Of a stretch of 64,000 nt of DNA, positions 8,308 through 17,026 are shown piece after piece; positions within the stretch are counted from its first letter, which is position 1; each line of letters begins with the position of its first letter. The translations under genes were made by a program, and so were the position numbers. The stretch spans positions 6,227,074 to 6,291,073 of the forward strand of contig NZ_CP041186.1 in assembly GCF_006517175.1 (NCBI RefSeq), given 5' to 3'. A model generated the notes under the pieces. That model saw only the letters and a list, made by a program, of their open reading frames with translations, did no database searches and was not told the DNA's origin. Origin of the DNA: Persicimonas caeni. GTDB lineage: Bacteria > Myxococcota_A > Bradymonadia > Bradymonadales > Bradymonadaceae.

Positions 8308-9426
8308 ATGCAAACAGAGCAGGGTAGTACCTCGCCCTCCGTGAAGTTCTCGCACGGGGGCGACTTTCGCCGCACGCTGCAAAAGCGTGTGAAGCATTAC
8401 TTCAAAGACACCGGGCTCGATCAACGCGATCAGCCTGCGATGTATCTCAAGACCGCCGTCATCCTCGGTTGGTTTTTCGCCTCCTACGCAGCTTTGGTCT
8501 TCGCTCCGCTTCCGTGGTGGGGGCGTGTGTTGATGGCCATCTCGCTGGGCCTTTCGTGTGCCGGAATCGGCTTTAGCATCATGCACGACGCCGGGCACCG
8601 AGCCTATTCGAAGAATAACTGGGTCAATCAGCTGCTTTTCATGTCCCTCGACATGCTCGGTGGCAGTTCGTACGTGTGGCGTTTCAAGCACAACACCCTG
8701 CACCACTCGTTTGCCAATATCGACGGCCACGACGACGACATCGATATCGGTTTGCTCGGACGCCTCTCGCCGGAACAGAAGCGCCTGCCGTTTCACCGCT
8801 TTCAGCACTGGTATGTGTGGCCACTGTACGGTCTCTTGGTGGTCAAATGGCAGTTTTGGGACGATTTCTACTGCTGGGCGACCGGGAAGGTCGGCGGTCG
8901 TGAAATGCCCCGTCCCAAGGGGATGGACGCGGCCGTGTTGGTAGGAGGAAAGCTGGTCTTTCTGGTCTTCGGTTTTGTGGTTCCGGCGCTCATTCACCCC
9001 GTCGGCTGGGTCATCGCGTTTTACCTGTTGGCTTCATTCGTCCAGGGTATCGTGCTGGCGACGGTCTTCCAGCTGGCGCATTGCGTCGAAGAGGCCGACT
9101 TTCCGGTGCCGCCCGAGAGCCACCGCATGGAGCATGACTGGGCCACTCACCAGTTGATGACGACGGTGGACTTCGCTCAGAAGAACCCGCTTATCACGTG
9201 GTATGTGGGAGGCTTGAACTACCAGGTCGAGCACCATCTCTTCCCACGGATCTCACATATCCACTATCCCAAGCTCGCCGAAATCGTTCGCGAAACGTGT
9301 GAAGAATTCGGCGTGCCTTACCACGCTCAACCCACCCTGTGGGGTGGCATTCGCTCCCACTTCCGCCACCTGCGTCGGATGGGGCGGCCCGAGACCGCCA
9401 GCGAGCCAACGCTGAACGCGGCTTGA
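8308..9426 (+). CDS. Membrane fatty-acid desaturase
   Basis: This 372-residue integral membrane desaturase has the three diiron histidine boxes: HDAGH (93-97), HNTLHH (128-133) and QVEHH (306-310). Hydrophobic pairs lie at about 50-90 and 208-258. A QxxHH third box is typical of front-end (delta-5/delta-6-like) or linoleoyl-CoA desaturases, but no N-terminal cytochrome b5 domain is present, so electrons must come from a separate partner. It introduces a double bond into membrane acyl chains. The start at ATG 8308 has only a weak upstream purine stretch. A dyad at 8225-8245 may regulate it. Confidence 0.92.
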   Translation: MQTEQGSTSPSVKFSHGGDFRRTLQKRVKHYFKDTGLDQRDQPAMYLKTAVILGWFFASYAALVFAPLPWWGRVLMAISLGLSCAGIGFSIMHDAGHRAYSKNNWVNQLLFMSLDMLGGSSYVWRFKHNTLHHSFANIDGHDDDIDIGLLGRLSPEQKRLPFHRFQHWYVWPLYGLLVVKWQFWDDFYCWATGKVGGREMPRPKGMDAAVLVGGKLVFLVFGFVVPALIHPVGWVIAFYLLASFVQGIVLATVFQLAHCVEEADFPVPPESHRMEHDWATHQLMTTVDFAQKNPLITWYVGGLNYQVEHHLFPRISHIHYPKLAEIVRETCEEFGVPYHAQPTLWGGIRSHFRHLRRMGRPETASEPTLNAA

Positions 9427-9429
9427 ACG

Positions 9430-9509
9430 AAAAAAATCGGAGGCAGGACCTCGAGCCCTGGCAGCGAGGCCTGTGCCTGCCGTCCAGAGCTGGAAGGTCT
9501 GCCTCCGAT
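9430..9509 (-). terminator. Long hairpin terminator for the PRC-barrel operon
   Basis: ATCGGAGGCAGGACCT (9436-9451) pairs, with one mismatch or bulge, with AGGTCTGCCTCCGAT (9495-9509). Read on the minus strand, the stem is followed by seven T residues (plus-strand A-tract 9430-9436), so it should stop transcription leftward from the PRC-barrel gene. There is no T-tract on the plus side. Confidence 0.8.
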
Positions 9510-9534
9510 CGTCGTTCTGCCCTTCGTTAAGGTG

Positions 9535-9858
9535 TCAGGCGCGCGGACGTGTCGACGATGACTCGGAGCCGCGGTAGATCTTCACCCGCGGCTCGGTATG
9601 CGTCTGTGTATGCCCCTGCGTGTGCGTCCCCTTGTGCAGGTAGACGCCATCGCTGGTGATGTCGATATCGTCGACCGAGAAGCGCTCGCCGTTGTCGAGG
9701 ATCACGGTGCGCACAAGCTTGGCGTCGGTATCGACGAGCATGTCGTCGATCTTGCCGATGCGTCCGCCGTCGCGCTCGTAGAGCACCTTTCCGCGAACAT
9801 CCTCTTTGCGGTCGGACACGTGCCAATCGTCGAGATGGGACAACTTCTTCAGAGCCAT
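9535..9858 (-). CDS. PRC-barrel domain protein (copy 1)
   Basis: A 107-residue protein whose residues 1-75 form a PRC-barrel: a start of the type LSHLDDWHV, then DVRGKVLYE, GRIGKIDDMLVDTD and VRTVILDNGERFSV. The tail is His/Thr-rich. PRC-barrels occur in photosynthetic reaction centres, RNA-processing proteins and stress proteins (known), and the partner here is unknown. AGGAGG is seven bases before ATG 9858. It is last in a minus-strand set DUF2382 gene - microprotein - PRC-barrel and is followed by a terminator. A paralogue lies at 13646-13951 with the same order of motifs. Confidence 0.85.
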   Translation of the reverse strand: MALKKLSHLDDWHVSDRKEDVRGKVLYERDGGRIGKIDDMLVDTDAKLVRTVILDNGERFSVDDIDITSDGVYLHKGTHTQGHTQTHTEPRVKIYRGSESSSTRPRA

Positions 9859-9913
9859 GTGCTACCTCCTGGCGTAGAATGGGCGTGAATCAGCCGTTCG
9901 ATCGATGCGCGGC

Positions 9914-10030
9914 TCAGTCGATGAGCGCCACAAGGAACCAAACTGCTGCGATCAGGACGATGAGACCGAGAATCCAGCCCCAAATCTGGGCGGTTCTGTC
10001 TTTGTTCTTTTCAACTTCGATGCGTGCCAT
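9914..10030 (-). CDS. 38-aa single-helix membrane microprotein (copy 1)
   Basis: A short reading frame with a good ribosome site (GGAGG seven bases before ATG 10030) encodes 38 residues. The start is MARIEVEKNKDR, followed by one hydrophobic helix (about residues 15-36, beginning IWGWILGL) and the end ALID. It lies between the DUF2382 gene and the PRC-barrel gene on the same strand, with gaps of 48 and 55 bases. The protein at 13971-14084 shares the start (RIEVEK), the WGWI helix opening and the size, so the two are paralogues. Inner membrane location is inferred. I know no named family for it. Confidence 0.75.
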   Translation of the reverse strand: MARIEVEKNKDRTAQIWGWILGLIVLIAAVWFLVALID

Positions 10031-10078
10031 ATCGTTGCCTCCGTGGTTTGAGGGTCGCGTTGCAGTGCTCGGCGCGGG

Positions 10079-11179
10079 TTAGGAGCGCTGGCGGCGCCGG
10101 GCGGTTTCGAAGCCGTAGCGGGCCGCGTCACGGTGGTTCGAGAAGGTCCCCTCACCGTGCTCGCGCTCGTAGGCGCGCTTCATGTCAGGCTCCAGATCAT
10201 TGTACTCACGCCCCTTGTAGCGCTGACTGACGCCAAAGGCGTGGCCGAAGCGATACGCCGGCTCGTAGTGGCTGTAGTCCTTGCCCGTGCTACCGAACTG
10301 TGACTTGTGGTGTTGCTTGAAGTCGGACTCGAAGTGGCCGTAGCCGTGCTTGTCGGACACCCCTTCGGTCAGCCGCTCGATGTCGATTTCGGTCTCACGC
10401 GCCGTTTCGCGGATGGTCTCGGTATGCTCCTCGACCTCCTTGCCGACGTGGAGCTCCTCCTCGATGCGCGTCTCCTTTTGGACCACCGGCTCCTCGGCGT
10501 GCTCGCGCACCTCGATGGTCTCTTCGCTGAAGACGTCCTTGTCTCCTTTGACCGGCTTGTCGACCTTCTCGCGGCGCACGTCGGCGTGCTCCTCGCGAAG
10601 GTGGACTTCCTCTTCGACCGGCTTCTCCTTGACGCGCTTGTGCACGCGCAGACCGCCTGTTTCCACGTCGCGCTTGCCGACACGTACGTCTTCGTGCGCT
10701 TTGGTGATGCGCGCCTCTTCGCCGGAGCCGAGGATGCGGTTTCGCTCCTGTTCGACCTGCTCACGGTTGTAGAGGTCGGCGTTGGGGTTGAACCCCTGGT
10801 AGCCTGTCTCACGCCACTTTTCGCGGCGGCTCGACAGGTCGACCGACTCTTGGTTGTCGAGGTAACGCGCGATTTCGTCGGCCTTGCTGTCGTCGTCGAC
10901 CTCGGTGATGATCAGGTTTCCGCCGCGGCGAACCGCCTCGGCGAACTCACGCGCGTCGGTCGATGGCACCCCGCGTGACTCGAGCTCGTCGACCAGTTTG
11001 GCGGTGGTGTTTTCGCCGCTCCGGCCGATGCCCCAGGGGTCGTTGCCCTCCGAGAGACTTCGCCAAGTCACTGTATTGACGTGCCTTTCGCTCACGCCGT
11101 GGTCCTTCAGACCGTTCTTGATGCGGTGGACCGTCTGTTCGCTGTCGAAAAGTCCCACTATTGTCGTAGTCATGGTCAT
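10079..11179 (-). CDS. DUF2382 protein with N-terminal stress-protein-like domain
   Basis: A 366-residue hydrophilic protein. Residues 5-105 begin TTIVGLFDSEQTVHR and resemble the fold of general stress protein 17M (inference). Residues about 155-275 form a DUF2382 (YsnF/AvaK-type) domain with repeated EE/EV-rich strands such as VHKRVKEKPVEEEVH and VREHAEEPVV. The C-terminus is Tyr/His-rich (FGHAFGVSQRYKGRE) and basic. DUF2382 proteins are linked to desiccation and oxidative stress in several bacteria. The ribosome site is AGGAGG upstream of ATG 11179. It heads the minus-strand set that continues into the 38-aa microprotein and PRC-barrel protein. Confidence 0.85.
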   Translation of the reverse strand: MTMTTTIVGLFDSEQTVHRIKNGLKDHGVSERHVNTVTWRSLSEGNDPWGIGRSGENTTAKLVDELESRGVPSTDAREFAEAVRRGGNLIITEVDDDSKADEIARYLDNQESVDLSSRREKWRETGYQGFNPNADLYNREQVEQERNRILGSGEEARITKAHEDVRVGKRDVETGGLRVHKRVKEKPVEEEVHLREEHADVRREKVDKPVKGDKDVFSEETIEVREHAEEPVVQKETRIEEELHVGKEVEEHTETIRETARETEIDIERLTEGVSDKHGYGHFESDFKQHHKSQFGSTGKDYSHYEPAYRFGHAFGVSQRYKGREYNDLEPDMKRAYEREHGEGTFSNHRDAARYGFETARRRQRS

Positions 11180-11377
11180 GCCTCCTCATGCGCGATCGCG
11201 CCGGGCGAATGTCCCGGCACACCGAACGCGCAGGCTTGGGTTAGGTGCTAGCTGCTATGGCCGTACACAGTGGGGCTTACGAGGCCCGATATGCGGCCTG
11301 AATTGTCAGAAATTGGCAGTCAGACAGGTATACTGCAGCGGTAATGCAAGGTGGCGTGAGCCGGAAAACAGCAAATA

Positions 11378-12043
11378 TCAGGAAGGGCGTGATTCGCCCG
11401 GCTCGTTGCCAGAATCTGTGCGCTGGCGCTCGATGTCGATGTGCTCGCGCCGCAACGTCACCGGCTCGCTGATATCTTGCGAGTGCCGCACGCGACGCAC
11501 GTGAACCTCTTCGACGAGCACCAATTGCTTGACCAATCGCTCTTCGAGCACCGGGATGACGACCGTGTCGCCGTCCTGGCGCACTCGCGGTGGCTCGTCG
11601 ACCACGCGTCCAATGGGCACGCGCTCGATCTTGGCCTCCTCGAAGTCGATGTGGTCGTCGAGGGTGAACTCCTCGGTGTCGACCTGCTTGTGGACGAGCA
11701 CACGTCCGATGGGACGGCGCTGGCGGCTGACGTTGATATGCTCTCGTGCCACCGTCATGTCGGCGCCGCCGTTGTCGGGCGACGACGTCTCATCGCGCGA
11801 GGTCTCATTGCGCGAGGGAGTGCGAGCCCGTGGCCGTGGCTCGGACATCTCGAACTCGTCAAAACGTCCGTCGAGCCGATAGGTCCCGTCGTCGGTCACC
11901 GTCACGCGCTCGTGGGGCACCACGGCGCGGCGGCCGTCGCCGAAGGCCACGCTCAGGGTGCCGGCGCGCTCTCCCGAGAGCACGTCGGTCACCAATCTTC
12001 CTACCTCTCCTACTTCATCGGTGACCTTCGCTCTTGTCGCCAT
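11378..12043 (-). CDS. DUF2382 protein, shorter paralogue
   Basis: A 221-residue protein. The N-terminal 75 residues form a small barrel-like segment that binds into RYRL-type strands, followed by an Arg/Ser/Glu linker. A DUF2382 domain then occupies about residues 95-205 (VAREHINVSRQRRPIGRVLV, VPIGRVVDEPPRVR, VLVEEVHVRRVRH). ATG 12043, with GGAG eight bases upstream, is preferred over a start 43 codons further out that lacks a ribosome site. The conserved promoter motif at 12111-12138 lies about 68 bases upstream. It is a separate transcript from the gene at 10079-11179, because a 198-base gap lies between them. Confidence 0.82.
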   Translation of the reverse strand: MATRAKVTDEVGEVGRLVTDVLSGERAGTLSVAFGDGRRAVVPHERVTVTDDGTYRLDGRFDEFEMSEPRPRARTPSRNETSRDETSSPDNGGADMTVAREHINVSRQRRPIGRVLVHKQVDTEEFTLDDHIDFEEAKIERVPIGRVVDEPPRVRQDGDTVVIPVLEERLVKQLVLVEEVHVRRVRHSQDISEPVTLRREHIDIERQRTDSGNEPGESRPS

Positions 12044-12065
12044 AATGCTTCTCCGTGCGGCTTGG

Positions 12066-12087
12066 GATATCTGCACGATATCTGCAC
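12066..12087. repeat. Tandem 11-bp direct repeat in the leader region
   Basis: GATATCTGCAC occurs twice in immediate tandem (12066-12076, 12077-12087), between the promoter-like motif and the start of the short DUF2382 gene. It could be a regulator site or part of the mRNA leader. Confidence 0.6.
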
Positions 12088-12110
12088 GTGGGCAGACACT
12101 CGTCGATTCA

Positions 12111-12138
12111 AACTTACGGTTGTGCGCAAATCGGTCAA
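12111..12138 (-). promoter_or_regulatory. Promoter-like motif for the short DUF2382 gene
   Basis: On the minus strand the pattern is TTGACC, 16 bases, TAAGTT. The surrounding block TACGGTTG-N9-CGGTCAAACT (plus strand, 12115-12141) recurs exactly, with the same spacer length, at 14140-14166 in front of the 37-aa microprotein gene. The identity in two otherwise different upstream regions supports a real promoter used by the same sigma factor or regulator (inference). Confidence 0.6.
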
Positions 12139-12303
12139 ACTCTGGAGCAGCGATTGACCCCGGCGGTTGCATTGGCTTTGGTGCTGCGGCATCGTGGGCA
12201 TACAGGCATTGAAATCGGTGACATTGGGCCTATCGCTTCGACCAGGCACAGGCTGGCTGGGGTAGCCCCCGGCTTCTGAACTCTCCATCCGCGGCTCTCG
12301 ACG

Positions 12304-13626
12304 ATGCTTCTGACCTCCAAGGCAGCCTCACAACGTGAATTTTGCAACTGGGCGGGCAACCAGACTTGTCGGCCCGCCGGTATCCACATGCCCAGTTCGG
12401 AAGCCGAGTTCGTCGAACTCGTCCGGCTGGTACGCGCCCGTGGCCAGACCTTGCGAGTCGTCGGCGCCGGCCATTCGTGGTCGGGCATCGCGTGCACCGA
12501 CGGTCATTTGGTCAGCCTCGACCGCATGGCGGAGGTGCTCGAGCTCGACGCCGACGCCGGCACCGTGACGGTGGAGGCGGGCGTTCGCCTGCACGCGCTG
12601 GTCGACTATTTGCTCGAGCGAGGTATGGCGCTGCCCAACCTGGGCTCGGTGGCCGAGCAGTCTGTCGCAGGCGTCATCTCCACGGGCACGCACGGCACCG
12701 GGGTGGGTATCGGCAATTTGTCGTCCATGGTCGAGTCGCTTCGGCTGGTCACCGGCACCGGCGATATCGTCGAGGTCGACCGAGAGAGCGACCCTGCGCT
12801 CTTCGCCGCCGCCAGGGTCGGCTTGGGGAGTCTGGGAATCATCACCGCCGTGACGATGCGCTGCGTGCCCGCGTTCAACCTGTACGAGCGCTCCTGGACC
12901 CTGCGCTTCGACGAGGCGCTCTGCCAGATGCAGTCGCTCGTCGACCGCCACGACCACATCAAGTTTTGGTGGCTGCCGCACACCGGTCGCATCCAAGTAT
13001 TTGCCGCCGACCGCACCCCGCGCGAGCCGACACGGGTCAAGCTGATGCATCGCATCGACGACTCCGGGCTGCTCAAGCCGGTTTTTGCTGGGGTGTTGGG
13101 GCTGGGCGGGCGCTATCCGGAGATGATCCCGGCGCTCAACTGGCTCGTGGCGGCGACCTATTTTGCCGACTACGAGCTGGTCGACCGCAGCCACCGCGTC
13201 TTCAATTTGCCGATGCCGCCGAGTCACCTGGAGGCCGAGTTCGGCTTTGCGCGCGAGGACGCCGAGTCGGCCCTCGAGCAGATGCGTGCGCTCATCGAGT
13301 GGGACCAGATTCGGGTGAATTTCATCACCGAGGTGCGCTTTGTGGCCGCCGACGACATCTGGCTGAGCCCGGCCTACGGGCGCGAATCGTGCCAGCTGGG
13401 CGCGTATATCGGCGAGACGCCGCAGTGGCGCTCCTATTTTGAAGGGGTCGAGCAAATCGCCTGGCGCATGGGGGCGCGGCCGCACTGGGGCAAGACGTTC
13501 TTTGCCGGTGCCGAGCAGATGCGCGAGGTCTTTCCGCACTTCGACGACTTTCTCGAGGTGCGCGAGCGCATCGATCCCGACCGTGTCTTCTCGAACGCGT
13601 TTACCCGGCGCGTGCTAGGCAGCTAG
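12304..13626 (+). CDS. FAD-linked sugar-1,4-lactone oxidase (ALO/gulonolactone oxidase family)
   Basis: A 440-residue oxidase with an N-terminal FAD-binding PCMH domain: VVGAGHSWSG (around residues 52-61) and GVISTGTHGTG (118-128), where the His contacts FAD in this family. A C-terminal ALO domain ends in the characteristic HWGK (residues 397-400). The family oxidises aldono-lactones or related polyols in the cytosol and gives ascorbate-type products in eukaryotes. The bacterial substrate here is unknown. The start ATG 12304 follows a divergent region shared with the DUF2382 gene. It is flanked on both sides by stress-type PRC/DUF2382 genes. Confidence 0.88.
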   Translation: MLLTSKAASQREFCNWAGNQTCRPAGIHMPSSEAEFVELVRLVRARGQTLRVVGAGHSWSGIACTDGHLVSLDRMAEVLELDADAGTVTVEAGVRLHALVDYLLERGMALPNLGSVAEQSVAGVISTGTHGTGVGIGNLSSMVESLRLVTGTGDIVEVDRESDPALFAAARVGLGSLGIITAVTMRCVPAFNLYERSWTLRFDEALCQMQSLVDRHDHIKFWWLPHTGRIQVFAADRTPREPTRVKLMHRIDDSGLLKPVFAGVLGLGGRYPEMIPALNWLVAATYFADYELVDRSHRVFNLPMPPSHLEAEFGFAREDAESALEQMRALIEWDQIRVNFITEVRFVAADDIWLSPAYGRESCQLGAYIGETPQWRSYFEGVEQIAWRMGARPHWGKTFFAGAEQMREVFPHFDDFLEVRERIDPDRVFSNAFTRRVLGS

Positions 13627-13645
13627 TGCCTCGACGGCTCGTGCA

Positions 13646-13951
13646 CTAGGGGCGGTCCATCGGTCGCGACGGCCGATGCGCCCCGGGCGCACGCGCCGGC
13701 GGCTCGGCGAGCTTGGTGGCGTGCGGCTCGAGGATGATCTGGCCGTTTTCGTCGATGATGTCCTCGGTCGCGTAGTGGCGCCCGTCTTCGAGTACCACGC
13801 TGGTGACGATGCGGGTGTCGGTATCGACGACCATGTCGATGATCGTGCCCAGGCATTCGCCGCTGCGTCGGCACAATTCCTGCCCGCGAATATCTTGGTG
13901 TTTGTGCTTGAGCTTCCAGTCGGCGAGCTTCGAGAGTCGCTGGATCGTCAT
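13646..13951 (-). CDS. PRC-barrel domain protein (copy 2)
   Basis: A 101-residue paralogue of the protein at 9535-9858. It shares the order LSKLADWKL, DIRGQELC, GTIIDMVVDTDTRIV and VLEDGRHYATED, then a Pro/Arg-rich tail that differs from copy 1. AGGAGG is seven bases before ATG 13951. It follows the 37-aa microprotein gene on the same strand with a 19-base gap, so microprotein and PRC-barrel form a two-gene transcript. It converges with the lactone oxidase gene 19 bases away. Confidence 0.85.
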   Translation of the reverse strand: MTIQRLSKLADWKLKHKHQDIRGQELCRRSGECLGTIIDMVVDTDTRIVTSVVLEDGRHYATEDIIDENGQIILEPHATKLAEPPARAPGAHRPSRPMDRP

Positions 13952-13970
13952 GCTCTACCTCCTGCATGTG

Positions 13971-14084
13971 TTAGCCGGCAAATTCCGCCACCATCCAAAT
14001 GAGGGCGAGGATTGCGATGATCGCGACGATCCAACCCCAGAAGGTCGAACTCGCCGCGGCTTTCTTCTCCACCTCGATACGCAT
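13971..14084 (-). CDS. 37-aa single-helix membrane microprotein (copy 2)
   Basis: This short frame encodes 37 residues. It starts MRIEVEKKAAASS, has one hydrophobic helix beginning FWGWIVAI (about residues 14-33), and ends AEFAG. GGAGG is seven bases before ATG 14084. It is a paralogue of the 38-aa protein at 9914-10030 and, like it, lies directly upstream of a PRC-barrel gene. The promoter-like motif at 14136-14163 is 52 bases upstream. Repetition of the pairing supports a real gene. Its function is unknown, and a membrane anchor or partner of the PRC-barrel protein is possible (inference). Confidence 0.75.
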   Translation of the reverse strand: MRIEVEKKAAASSTFWGWIVAIIAILALIWMVAEFAG

Positions 14085-14135
14085 CGGTCTGCCTCCACAC
14101 GGGATCGATGAGTTGGTAGGCAACTCCACTCGCTA

Positions 14136-14163
14136 AATCTACGGTTGGCCCGCAGGCGGTCAA
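14136..14163 (-). promoter_or_regulatory. Promoter-like motif for microprotein/PRC-barrel copy 2
   Basis: On the minus strand the pattern is TTGACC, 16 bases, TAGATT. The block TACGGTTG-N9-CGGTCAAACT (plus strand, 14140-14166) is identical to that at 12115-12141 outside the 9-base spacer. Confidence 0.6.
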
Positions 14164-14290
14164 ACTGGGGGCCGAGCGCACTTTCTTCGCTTCATCTTAG
14201 ATCCATTTGGGCGCGGCTGCGTATCTACCCGTATCGGCCACGACAATCGTGGTGACTCGACTACCAACCTTGGCGACGACAACGGGTACG

Positions 14291-15307: not shown

Positions 15308-17026
15308 CTAGTTGTTCGCTCGCGCACAGAGCACCGGCTGCGGGCTCGCTGCATCGTCAGTGTTCCCGGTTCCAAGCTGCCCTTTATTGTTCAGCCCCCA
15401 ACACAAGACGTTGTCATTCCTGCCCGTGGCACACGTGAAGGACCTGCCTGCATCGATGGTGTTCGCGGCGGTCAGAGTGCCCAGCTGTGTCGGATAGGTA
15501 TACTGAGTCGGCGGTACCGAGCCTGTGCCGATGGCTCCATCGACGTTCGAGCCCCAGCAGTACGGACGCGAGTTGTCCCTCTCGAGGGCGCAGGTATGGC
15601 TGTCTCCCGCACGAACCCACTTGAATTGAGGCGTGTTCTGCACGGGCGTCGGCGCTTGCGTGTCATTGGTGTCGCCGGTGCCGAGTTGCCCACTGGCGTT
15701 TAGGCCCCAGCAGTCGACAAAGCCCTGGCTCGACACCGCGCAGGTGTGCCCAAAGCCTCCGTCGACCCGCTCGGCACCGATGCCGTTGGACAGCACGACC
15801 TCGAGCGGATCCGCACTGTCGCCCACGTTGGTCGAAATCTGGCCGAGTTGGCCTCCTCCGTTGGCACCCCAACACCACAGCTTGTTGGGCAGGTTGGGGT
15901 CGCTTGACTGGCTCACCGCACAGGAGTGCAAATCTCCCAAGCCCAGGTTGATCGGGCGCCCCTGCCAGTCGTGGTCGACAGCGACGGGGCCCTTTTCGTA
16001 GGCATTGGTTCCGCTCACGCCGAGTTGGTACTTATCGTTGTCTCCCCAACATAACACGCTGGGCGGGGTCTGATTCGAGCCGCGAGTGATGCCGCAGGTG
16101 TGGGCGCCACCACTGGCAATCTTGTGGAAGGACACAGAGGTATTCGTCTGGGTCACGACTTTGACGGGGTTGTCGGAGGACTGGCCCTGGCTGTTGCCGA
16201 GCTGTCCGCGCCCGCCAAAACCCCAGCAGAAGACTTCCCCGTTGCTGGCGAGTGCGCAGGTGTGTTCGCCCCCCGCCGAAATCATGGTGATGGGGTTGTT
16301 GGGGGACAGCGGAATCCTCTCGGCGCGCATCCTCGAGGGGGAGTTCTCCGCGCCGAATTGGCCCCAGCAATACACGTGGCCTTGCACCAGCATGCAGGCA
16401 TGGTCGTTCCCGGTGGTGACCATGTCGGCGACGGCTTCGTCGACGATGCCGTCACAATCGTTGTCGATGCCATCGCTCAGAAGTTGGCCGTTGTTGGCCA
16501 TGCCGCACCCTTGCTCGACGGCGCGGTAATCGGGCGGGGCCACGCATGTGCCGTCTTCATTGAGCACGGCGCGACCGCATGCGCCATCCGAAGATTCATT
16601 GTACGGGCAGGGGGTACACCCGTTTTCGGGCACGCCATCGCAGTCGTTGTCGACAAAGTCGCCGCAGATCTCCGGGCCGCAGGTCGACGTGTCGGTGTCT
16701 TGGCCGACGTCCTCGCTGGGTGCATCCGGTGTCACGTCCACCCCGGTATCGGTGCTGGGCGCATCGGGCGCCGTGTCAGACGTCGCGTCGGTAGACGCGT
16801 CCTCCTGGGGCTCGGCGCCGAGCTTGTAGCACGCGCTGAAGTTCTTGCCGGGCACCGGGCGGCACACGTAGCCGCTGCCACATTGGCCGACGGCGGCCGG
16901 ATCGCAAGTGAACTGATATTCGTCGACCTGCAACTCCTGGCTACAACCGACCAGGCTGCCCCCAGCCAGCGCCAATGCAAGTCCACATGCCCACCGAAAC
17001 ATCTCTCTTCGAACGACTTGGTACAT
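15308..17026 (-). CDS. RCC1-repeat surface lipoprotein
   Basis: A 572-residue lipoprotein. A lipobox GSLVGC lies near residues 23-28. It is followed by a Cys-rich segment with CGSGYVCRPVPG, a Thr/Asp/Pro linker, two MopE-like DNDCDG motifs (about 125 and 188), and then seven RCC1 blades, each with H-[ST]-C-A-x and CWG. The blades should close a beta-propeller displayed on the outer membrane or outside. Start choice: codon 1 at 17026 has a weak GGAAAGAG, and ATG 17002 would also keep the signal peptide. It lies 27 bases downstream of the TPR protein gene on the same strand, so the two are probably one operon. Confidence 0.88.
   Translation of the reverse strand: MYQVVRREMFRWACGLALALAGGSLVGCSQELQVDEYQFTCDPAAVGQCGSGYVCRPVPGKNFSACYKLGAEPQEDASTDATSDTAPDAPSTDTGVDVTPDAPSEDVGQDTDTSTCGPEICGDFVDNDCDGVPENGCTPCPYNESSDGACGRAVLNEDGTCVAPPDYRAVEQGCGMANNGQLLSDGIDNDCDGIVDEAVADMVTTGNDHACMLVQGHVYCWGQFGAENSPSRMRAERIPLSPNNPITMISAGGEHTCALASNGEVFCWGFGGRGQLGNSQGQSSDNPVKVVTQTNTSVSFHKIASGGAHTCGITRGSNQTPPSVLCWGDNDKYQLGVSGTNAYEKGPVAVDHDWQGRPINLGLGDLHSCAVSQSSDPNLPNKLWCWGANGGGQLGQISTNVGDSADPLEVVLSNGIGAERVDGGFGHTCAVSSQGFVDCWGLNASGQLGTGDTNDTQAPTPVQNTPQFKWVRAGDSHTCALERDNSRPYCWGSNVDGAIGTGSVPPTQYTYPTQLGTLTAANTIDAGRSFTCATGRNDNVLCWGLNNKGQLGTGNTDDAASPQPVLCARANN

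Follow-up and report, generated by a model that had tools for sequence, protein, structure and literature searches.

Membrane microproteins beside PRC-barrel genes in Persicimonas caeni: candidate minimal members of a tag-and-helix anchor family

PRC-barrel and DUF2382 (YsnF/AvaK-type) stress genes are widespread and, to our knowledge, lack a known mechanism. In the bradymonad Persicimonas caeni, genes of both kinds lie together in a cluster of 4.6 kb, where each PRC-barrel gene is preceded by a tiny frame for a single-helix protein. The locus thus raises the question of whether such frames are genes at all, and what their products might contribute to the PRC-barrel proteins encoded next to them. 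The window, i.e., the whole stretch of DNA analysed, comprises 64,000 nucleotides of a source genome (G000) that consists of a single contig of 8.05 Mb. The original prediction had described a duplicated PRC-barrel/DUF2382/microprotein module with a shared promoter motif and had read it as a stress regulon. Every element that it named was found in place, including the 37- or 38-aa single-helix frame before each PRC-barrel gene and the two DUF2382 genes:

14136 to 14163, minus strand: site B, promoter-like (TTGACC-16-TAGATT), before microprotein 2
13971 to 14084, minus strand: microprotein 2, MRIEVEKKAAASSTFWGWIVAIIAILALIWMVAEFAG, 37 aa, a predicted cytoplasmic IxVEK tag and one transmembrane (TM) helix, with an ortholog in genome G002
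13646 to 13951, minus strand: PRC2, PRC-barrel protein of 101 aa (Pfam PF05239, E=3.1e-5)
12111 to 12138, minus strand: site A, promoter-like (TTGACC-16-TAAGTT), before DUF2382-2
11378 to 12043, minus strand: DUF2382-2, YsnF/AvaK-type, 221 aa as measured from the ATG at 12043 (Pfam PF09557, E=4.5e-17)
10079 to 11179, minus strand: DUF2382-1, 366 aa (Pfam PF09557, E=4.2e-19)
9914 to 10030, minus strand: microprotein 1, MARIEVEKNKDRTAQIWGWILGLIVLIAAVWFLVALID, 38 aa
9535 to 9858, minus strand: PRC1, PRC-barrel protein of 107 aa (Pfam PF05239, E=2.6e-6)
9425 to 9520, minus strand: hairpin with T7 at its end, probably the intrinsic terminator of the DUF2382-1/microprotein 1/PRC1 transcript (-61 kcal/mol, z=-9.3)
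8308 to 9426, plus strand: fatty-acid desaturase (Pfam PF00487), a convergent neighbour outside the module

Site B is followed by the genes for microprotein 2 and PRC2, a plus-strand FAD/lactone oxidase gene, site A with DUF2382-2, and finally DUF2382-1, microprotein 1 and PRC1, after which comes the very stable terminator hairpin. Both microprotein genes have a good ribosome site, GGAGG placed 7 nt 5' of the ATG, as had been proposed, and the PRC-barrel genes start 55 nt (PRC1) and 19 nt (PRC2) past the microproteins. The PRC-barrel proteins score 27.8 and 24.3 bits against a PF05239 gathering score of 21.2, and the DUF2382 proteins 69.3 and 62.8 bits against a PF09557 gathering score of 23, while the match of DUF2382-2 to TIGR02271 (E=2.1e-5) lies under that model's cut-off. 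Genome-wide, only these two PRC and two DUF2382 domains were detected, all inside the cluster. For the microproteins, no Pfam or NCBIfam model scored above its cut-off. The hairpin has an unusual stability for 96 nt and is much longer than an ordinary terminator. In the surroundings, the minus strand encodes an RCC1-repeat protein with a Cu-binding MopE-type motif (15308-17026), and the same fatty-acid desaturase is also the convergent neighbour of the single G002 module (L004/L045).

The first part of the question is answered by comparison with relatives. Genome G002, which belongs to another genus of the same family, harbours a frame of 37 aa, MVRIEVEKRPTSTTAFWSWALLFLLLAMVIWAVIELV, immediately before a PRC gene, and across the three 37-38-aa frames the codons of the tag differ by synonymous changes only (GAA/GAG, GTT/GTG/GTA). 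Together with the recurrence of tag and helix in many longer proteins, the ortholog bears out the expectation that the microprotein frames are conserved in relatives, and so far as sequence can tell, the microproteins are real conserved genes. Chance ORFs, or remnants of longer anchor genes left by decay, might be suspected since the relatives are longer; yet the tag is kept via synonymous changes in all three frames, the frames have equal lengths in two genera, and the gap between microprotein and PRC genes is a mere 19-55 nt, which leaves no decayed domain. Conservation largely excludes this explanation, and we regard it as very improbable. Still more remote is a small hydrophobic toxin of the type I kind or a leader peptide, which the size, the single helix and the short charged N-terminus would fit, whereas protein-level conservation across genera, homology to the N-termini of anchored proteins of 150-420 aa and co-encoding with PRC argue otherwise.

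Neither module is a symmetrical copy of the other. PRC1 and PRC2 are 40% identical and the two microproteins 38%, which argues for an old paralogy rather than a fresh duplication. In the PRC tree, PRC2 (43% identical to the G002 PRC) groups with the G002 protein (94/91) and PRC1 lies outside that pair (85/81), although no fork among these attains the tree tool's own star. Given this grouping, the paralogy of PRC1 and PRC2 probably predates the split of the two genera. Moreover, a promoter motif precedes one of the two microprotein-PRC pairs only, and microprotein 1 lies downstream of a DUF2382 gene. The "duplicated module" is therefore upheld as regards its paralogous pairs, but the paralogy is old, and layout and promoter differ.

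The bipartite motif proposed for two of the transcripts, AGTTTGACCG-N9-CAACCGTA, is indeed matched exactly at just two places in the 8.05-Mb genome, both in the cluster (12115-12141 and 14140-14166). A genome-wide scan with 1-2 mismatches yielded no further match, and the motif is absent before the DUF2382-1/microprotein 1/PRC1 transcript. When the two 250-nt upstream regions were shuffled, their best ungapped 27-mer (20/27) was equalled in 2/300 shuffles, so the case rests on genome-wide uniqueness and on conservation in another genus. Site B is the sole promoter-like site found by a consensus scan of the region, where 0.5 are expected. The layout, sigma-70-like in shape, recurs as TTGACCG-N15-TACCTT before the G002 microprotein ortholog, and is thus conserved between the window and that genus at the level of sequence. 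The general pattern TTGACCG-N15-TAnnTT has three matches each in G000 and G002, of which two and one, respectively, precede these genes; the number of matches per genome is about that of reversed controls.

The microproteins also fall within a wider "IxVEK tag-TM" family, defined by a start of the form M-x-x-I-x-[VI]-[EQ]-[KRQ], a Trp-flanked single helix and a PRC gene immediately downstream. Longer proteins with the common N-terminus MAxI[EPD]VEKK..W.W plus helix occur in a third bradymonad, in another myxobacterial family and in sphingomonad/Erythrobacter-type Alphaproteobacteria. Among 379 genomes of the phylum, a tag + helix profile retrieved both G000 microproteins, the G002 ortholog and a bradymonad protein (G009), where the start MAEIDIQRKSTPMWPWILGIIV stands on an acidic protein of 424 aa upstream of a PRC gene. 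A weak match in another myxobacterial family (G297/L064, E=0.0098; G297:C60:60087) turned out to be a tag-TM gene (99 aa) with a PRC + YsnF-like gene behind it, indicating that the family is broader than the profile threshold; most other weak matches in Myxococcota were unrelated TM segments and were rejected. An L067 protein of the source genome (G000:C1:782311), MADTQRRRSSRNRAGWVWVIVGIVAVALVVWWVAAAVDDDE..., has a similar helix and an acidic tail, lacks the IxVEK tag and a PRC gene nearby, and is perhaps a relative.

The association extends to Alphaproteobacteria. All five PRC relatives found there with PRC1 as a query of genome contigs have a tag-TM gene directly upstream (5/5), which encodes a protein of about 175 aa starting MA[EN]IPVEKKSS. 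A tag + helix query of 150 genomes, drawn from the family of one of these PRC relatives, yielded 26 loci in 17 genomes. In 19 of the 26 a PRC gene follows immediately on the same strand, mostly 1-77 nt past the stop codon, and in eight of these 19 the PRC domain is fused to DUF2382 and followed by a second DUF2382 frame; the remaining seven of the 26 have no PRC neighbour. The microprotein-PRC gene association thus holds across phyla. Among 385 genomes drawn evenly from the alphaproteobacterial class, no match beyond the centre genome itself was found, and hence the tag-TM family appears concentrated there in the centre genome's own family. Plasmids yielded no tblastn match to the tag or the PRC protein, and a PRC-DUF2382 fusion query matched DUF2382-type genes only.

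Throughout the family the tag is nearly invariant, and the part following the helix varies, being OB-like (in an AF2 model), acidic or OmpA-like (PF00691, E=8e-18). Three loci (L079, L082, L091) encode tag-TM proteins with an OmpA-like C-terminal domain and no PRC gene lies within 1.5 kb of them; a TAG breaks the L082 match. An OmpA domain must be periplasmic. This form consequently implies a periplasmic C-terminus and a cytoplasmic tag, and the charge distribution agrees (N-terminal side mostly 0 to +1, C-terminal side mostly -3 to -6), so that an N-in topology is predicted for tag-TM proteins. It is the putatively cytoplasmic tag plus the helix that is conserved along with PRC. As the extensions vary and the tag hardly does, the bradymonad microproteins represent the minimal form, and the best reading places them, as its smallest members, in an unnamed "IxVEK tag + helix" family of anchors that is linked to PRC-barrel/DUF2382 stress genes.

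How far does the stress reading hold? The stress sigma factor EcfG has GGAAC as its -35 element, and in Sphingomonas melonis a PRC-barrel gene is EcfG-dependent, the motif being GGAAC-N17-20-GTT (PMC6599016). In the alphaproteobacterial loci linked to PRC, GGAAC occurs at -110 to -35 of the tag gene in 23/23 cases (background 9%), as compared to 2/7 orphan tag-TM loci; these loci are mutually related, and a binomial P would overstate the enrichment. The strict EcfG pattern GGAAC-N15-18-CGTT is found in 1/30 alphaproteobacterial loci and the looser form, as published, fits better, with GTT at N17-20 after about one-quarter to one-third of the GGAAC sites. Owing to the degenerate -10 part and the relatedness of the loci, the evidence that alphaproteobacterial tag-PRC loci are under the general stress response is good but not conclusive. 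The idea of a stress regulon is thereby strengthened, whereas the promoter layout in the window is not of the EcfG type, and the stress function in P. caeni is putative.

Based on these data, we propose that the anchor family and the PRC-barrel proteins encoded with it form a stress-induced envelope module, in which the tag holds the PRC barrel at the inner membrane; we consider this proposal evenly balanced between right and wrong. The anchor would comprise a short cytoplasmic N-terminal tag (M-x-x-I-x-V-E-K-K) and a Trp-flanked single TM helix in N-in orientation, and would, in lineages other than that of the window, carry a variable periplasmic domain as well. Its gene lies immediately before a gene of one PRC-barrel subfamily (LxDWxL...QDIRG...), and DUF2382 (YsnF/AvaK) genes are frequent neighbours or fusion partners. 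Upon stress, anchor and PRC protein would be co-produced, and the tag, by itself or helped by the Trp belt close to the membrane, would keep the cytoplasmic PRC barrel at the inner membrane, where DUF2382 might be held in turn through the barrel. Since the bradymonad forms consist of tag and helix only, the conserved job must reside on the cytoplasmic or membrane side.

Binding of the tag to PRC is the step that alternatives address. In an AF2 model of a read-through fusion of one alphaproteobacterial tag-TM/PRC pair, employed as a docking device, helix, OB and PRC domains were confident, and the tag (mean pLDDT 64, no strand, pTM 0.46) was not confidently docked to PRC. With no confident tag contact, the docking step goes beyond the comparative evidence that carries the other steps. 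An AF2 model of DUF2382-1 (pLDDT 50) was set aside. The result of the fusion would also suit anchor and PRC proteins that are merely general-stress proteins of a common operon and do not touch, the IxVEKK tag being a topology or insertion signal or binding another partner; the seven of 26 tag-TM loci with no PRC nearby point the same way, and stress promoters alone could explain the linkage. This reading is possible if rather doubtful, as pairs of this tag with this PRC subfamily occur in two phyla despite differences in promoters and extra domains, and a near-invariant IPVEKK is not needed for a mere insertion signal.

Alternatively, the tag might dock DUF2382/YsnF or another envelope complex instead of PRC. 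DUF2382 is fused to PRC in eight loci and is present in the window, and the DUF2382 starts in the alphaproteobacterial fusions resemble the tag (an IPVVEEK stretch). We deem this improbable: the similar stretch is short, and no DUF2382 was found close to the tag genes of G002 and G009, nor beside 11 of the 19 tag genes linked to PRC in Alphaproteobacteria, which makes PRC the more constant neighbour. As an observation in its own right, the DUF2382 part of eight PRC fusions (L073, L081, L086, L087, L088, L090, L095, L096) opens (I/V)P(V/I/L)VEE, like IPVEKK, by coincidence or mimicry. Returning to the tag as a ligand of PRC, we tentatively extend the proposal: I-x-V-E-K might be a portable PRC-barrel docking peptide, and its carriers TM adaptors, the smallest of 37 aa, that connect a PRC/DUF2382 stress scaffold in the cytoplasm with the inner membrane and, in other lineages, with the periplasm and cell wall by way of an OB or OmpA domain.

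The PRC-barrel and DUF2382 families are known, and no description of the anchor family, or of its microprotein form, came up in the sources consulted: literature searches returned nothing on PRC-barrel combined with DUF2382, and nothing relevant that links PRC-barrel to microproteins or small membrane proteins. The anchor gene offers the PRC-barrel/DUF2382 stress genes a possible physical partner and a location that can be tested. Given that the bradymonad microproteins may constitute the anchor's essential part, the tag peptide and a PRC protein of 100 aa make a small, easily assayed pair.

Several known systems resemble the proposed module in part. The YsnF/AvaK general-stress genes likewise feature DUF2382 beside or fused to PRC; they are annotated as stress genes, and no anchor microprotein is described for them in the literature found. 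The EcfG regulon of sphingomonads holds a PRC-barrel gene dependent on the sigma factor and its GGAAC motif (PMC6599016), whereas EcfG is an alphaproteobacterial sigma factor and the window uses TTGACCG-N15-TAnnTT. Archaeal CdpB (8onw, TM-score 0.71) comprises small stand-alone PRC barrels, CdpB1 and CdpB2, that work beside the membrane anchor SepF (PMC12186497), yet these belong to the archaeal divisome, where SepF takes the place of a tag-TM microprotein as anchor. The best solved relative of the window PRC subfamily is the PRC domain of PuhA, the reaction centre subunit H (profile E=4e-6). In subunit H the PRC barrel is a docking module that works with a membrane partner, and because this holds for both of the closest solved PRC barrels, we propose that the tag recruits the barrel to the cytoplasmic face of the membrane under stress. 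PuhA also resembles the proposed module in that its PRC barrel, on the cytoplasmic face, goes together with a single TM helix; in PuhA, however, helix and barrel form one chain and the helix is N-out, whereas in P. caeni they are encoded by two genes and the helix is predicted to be N-in.
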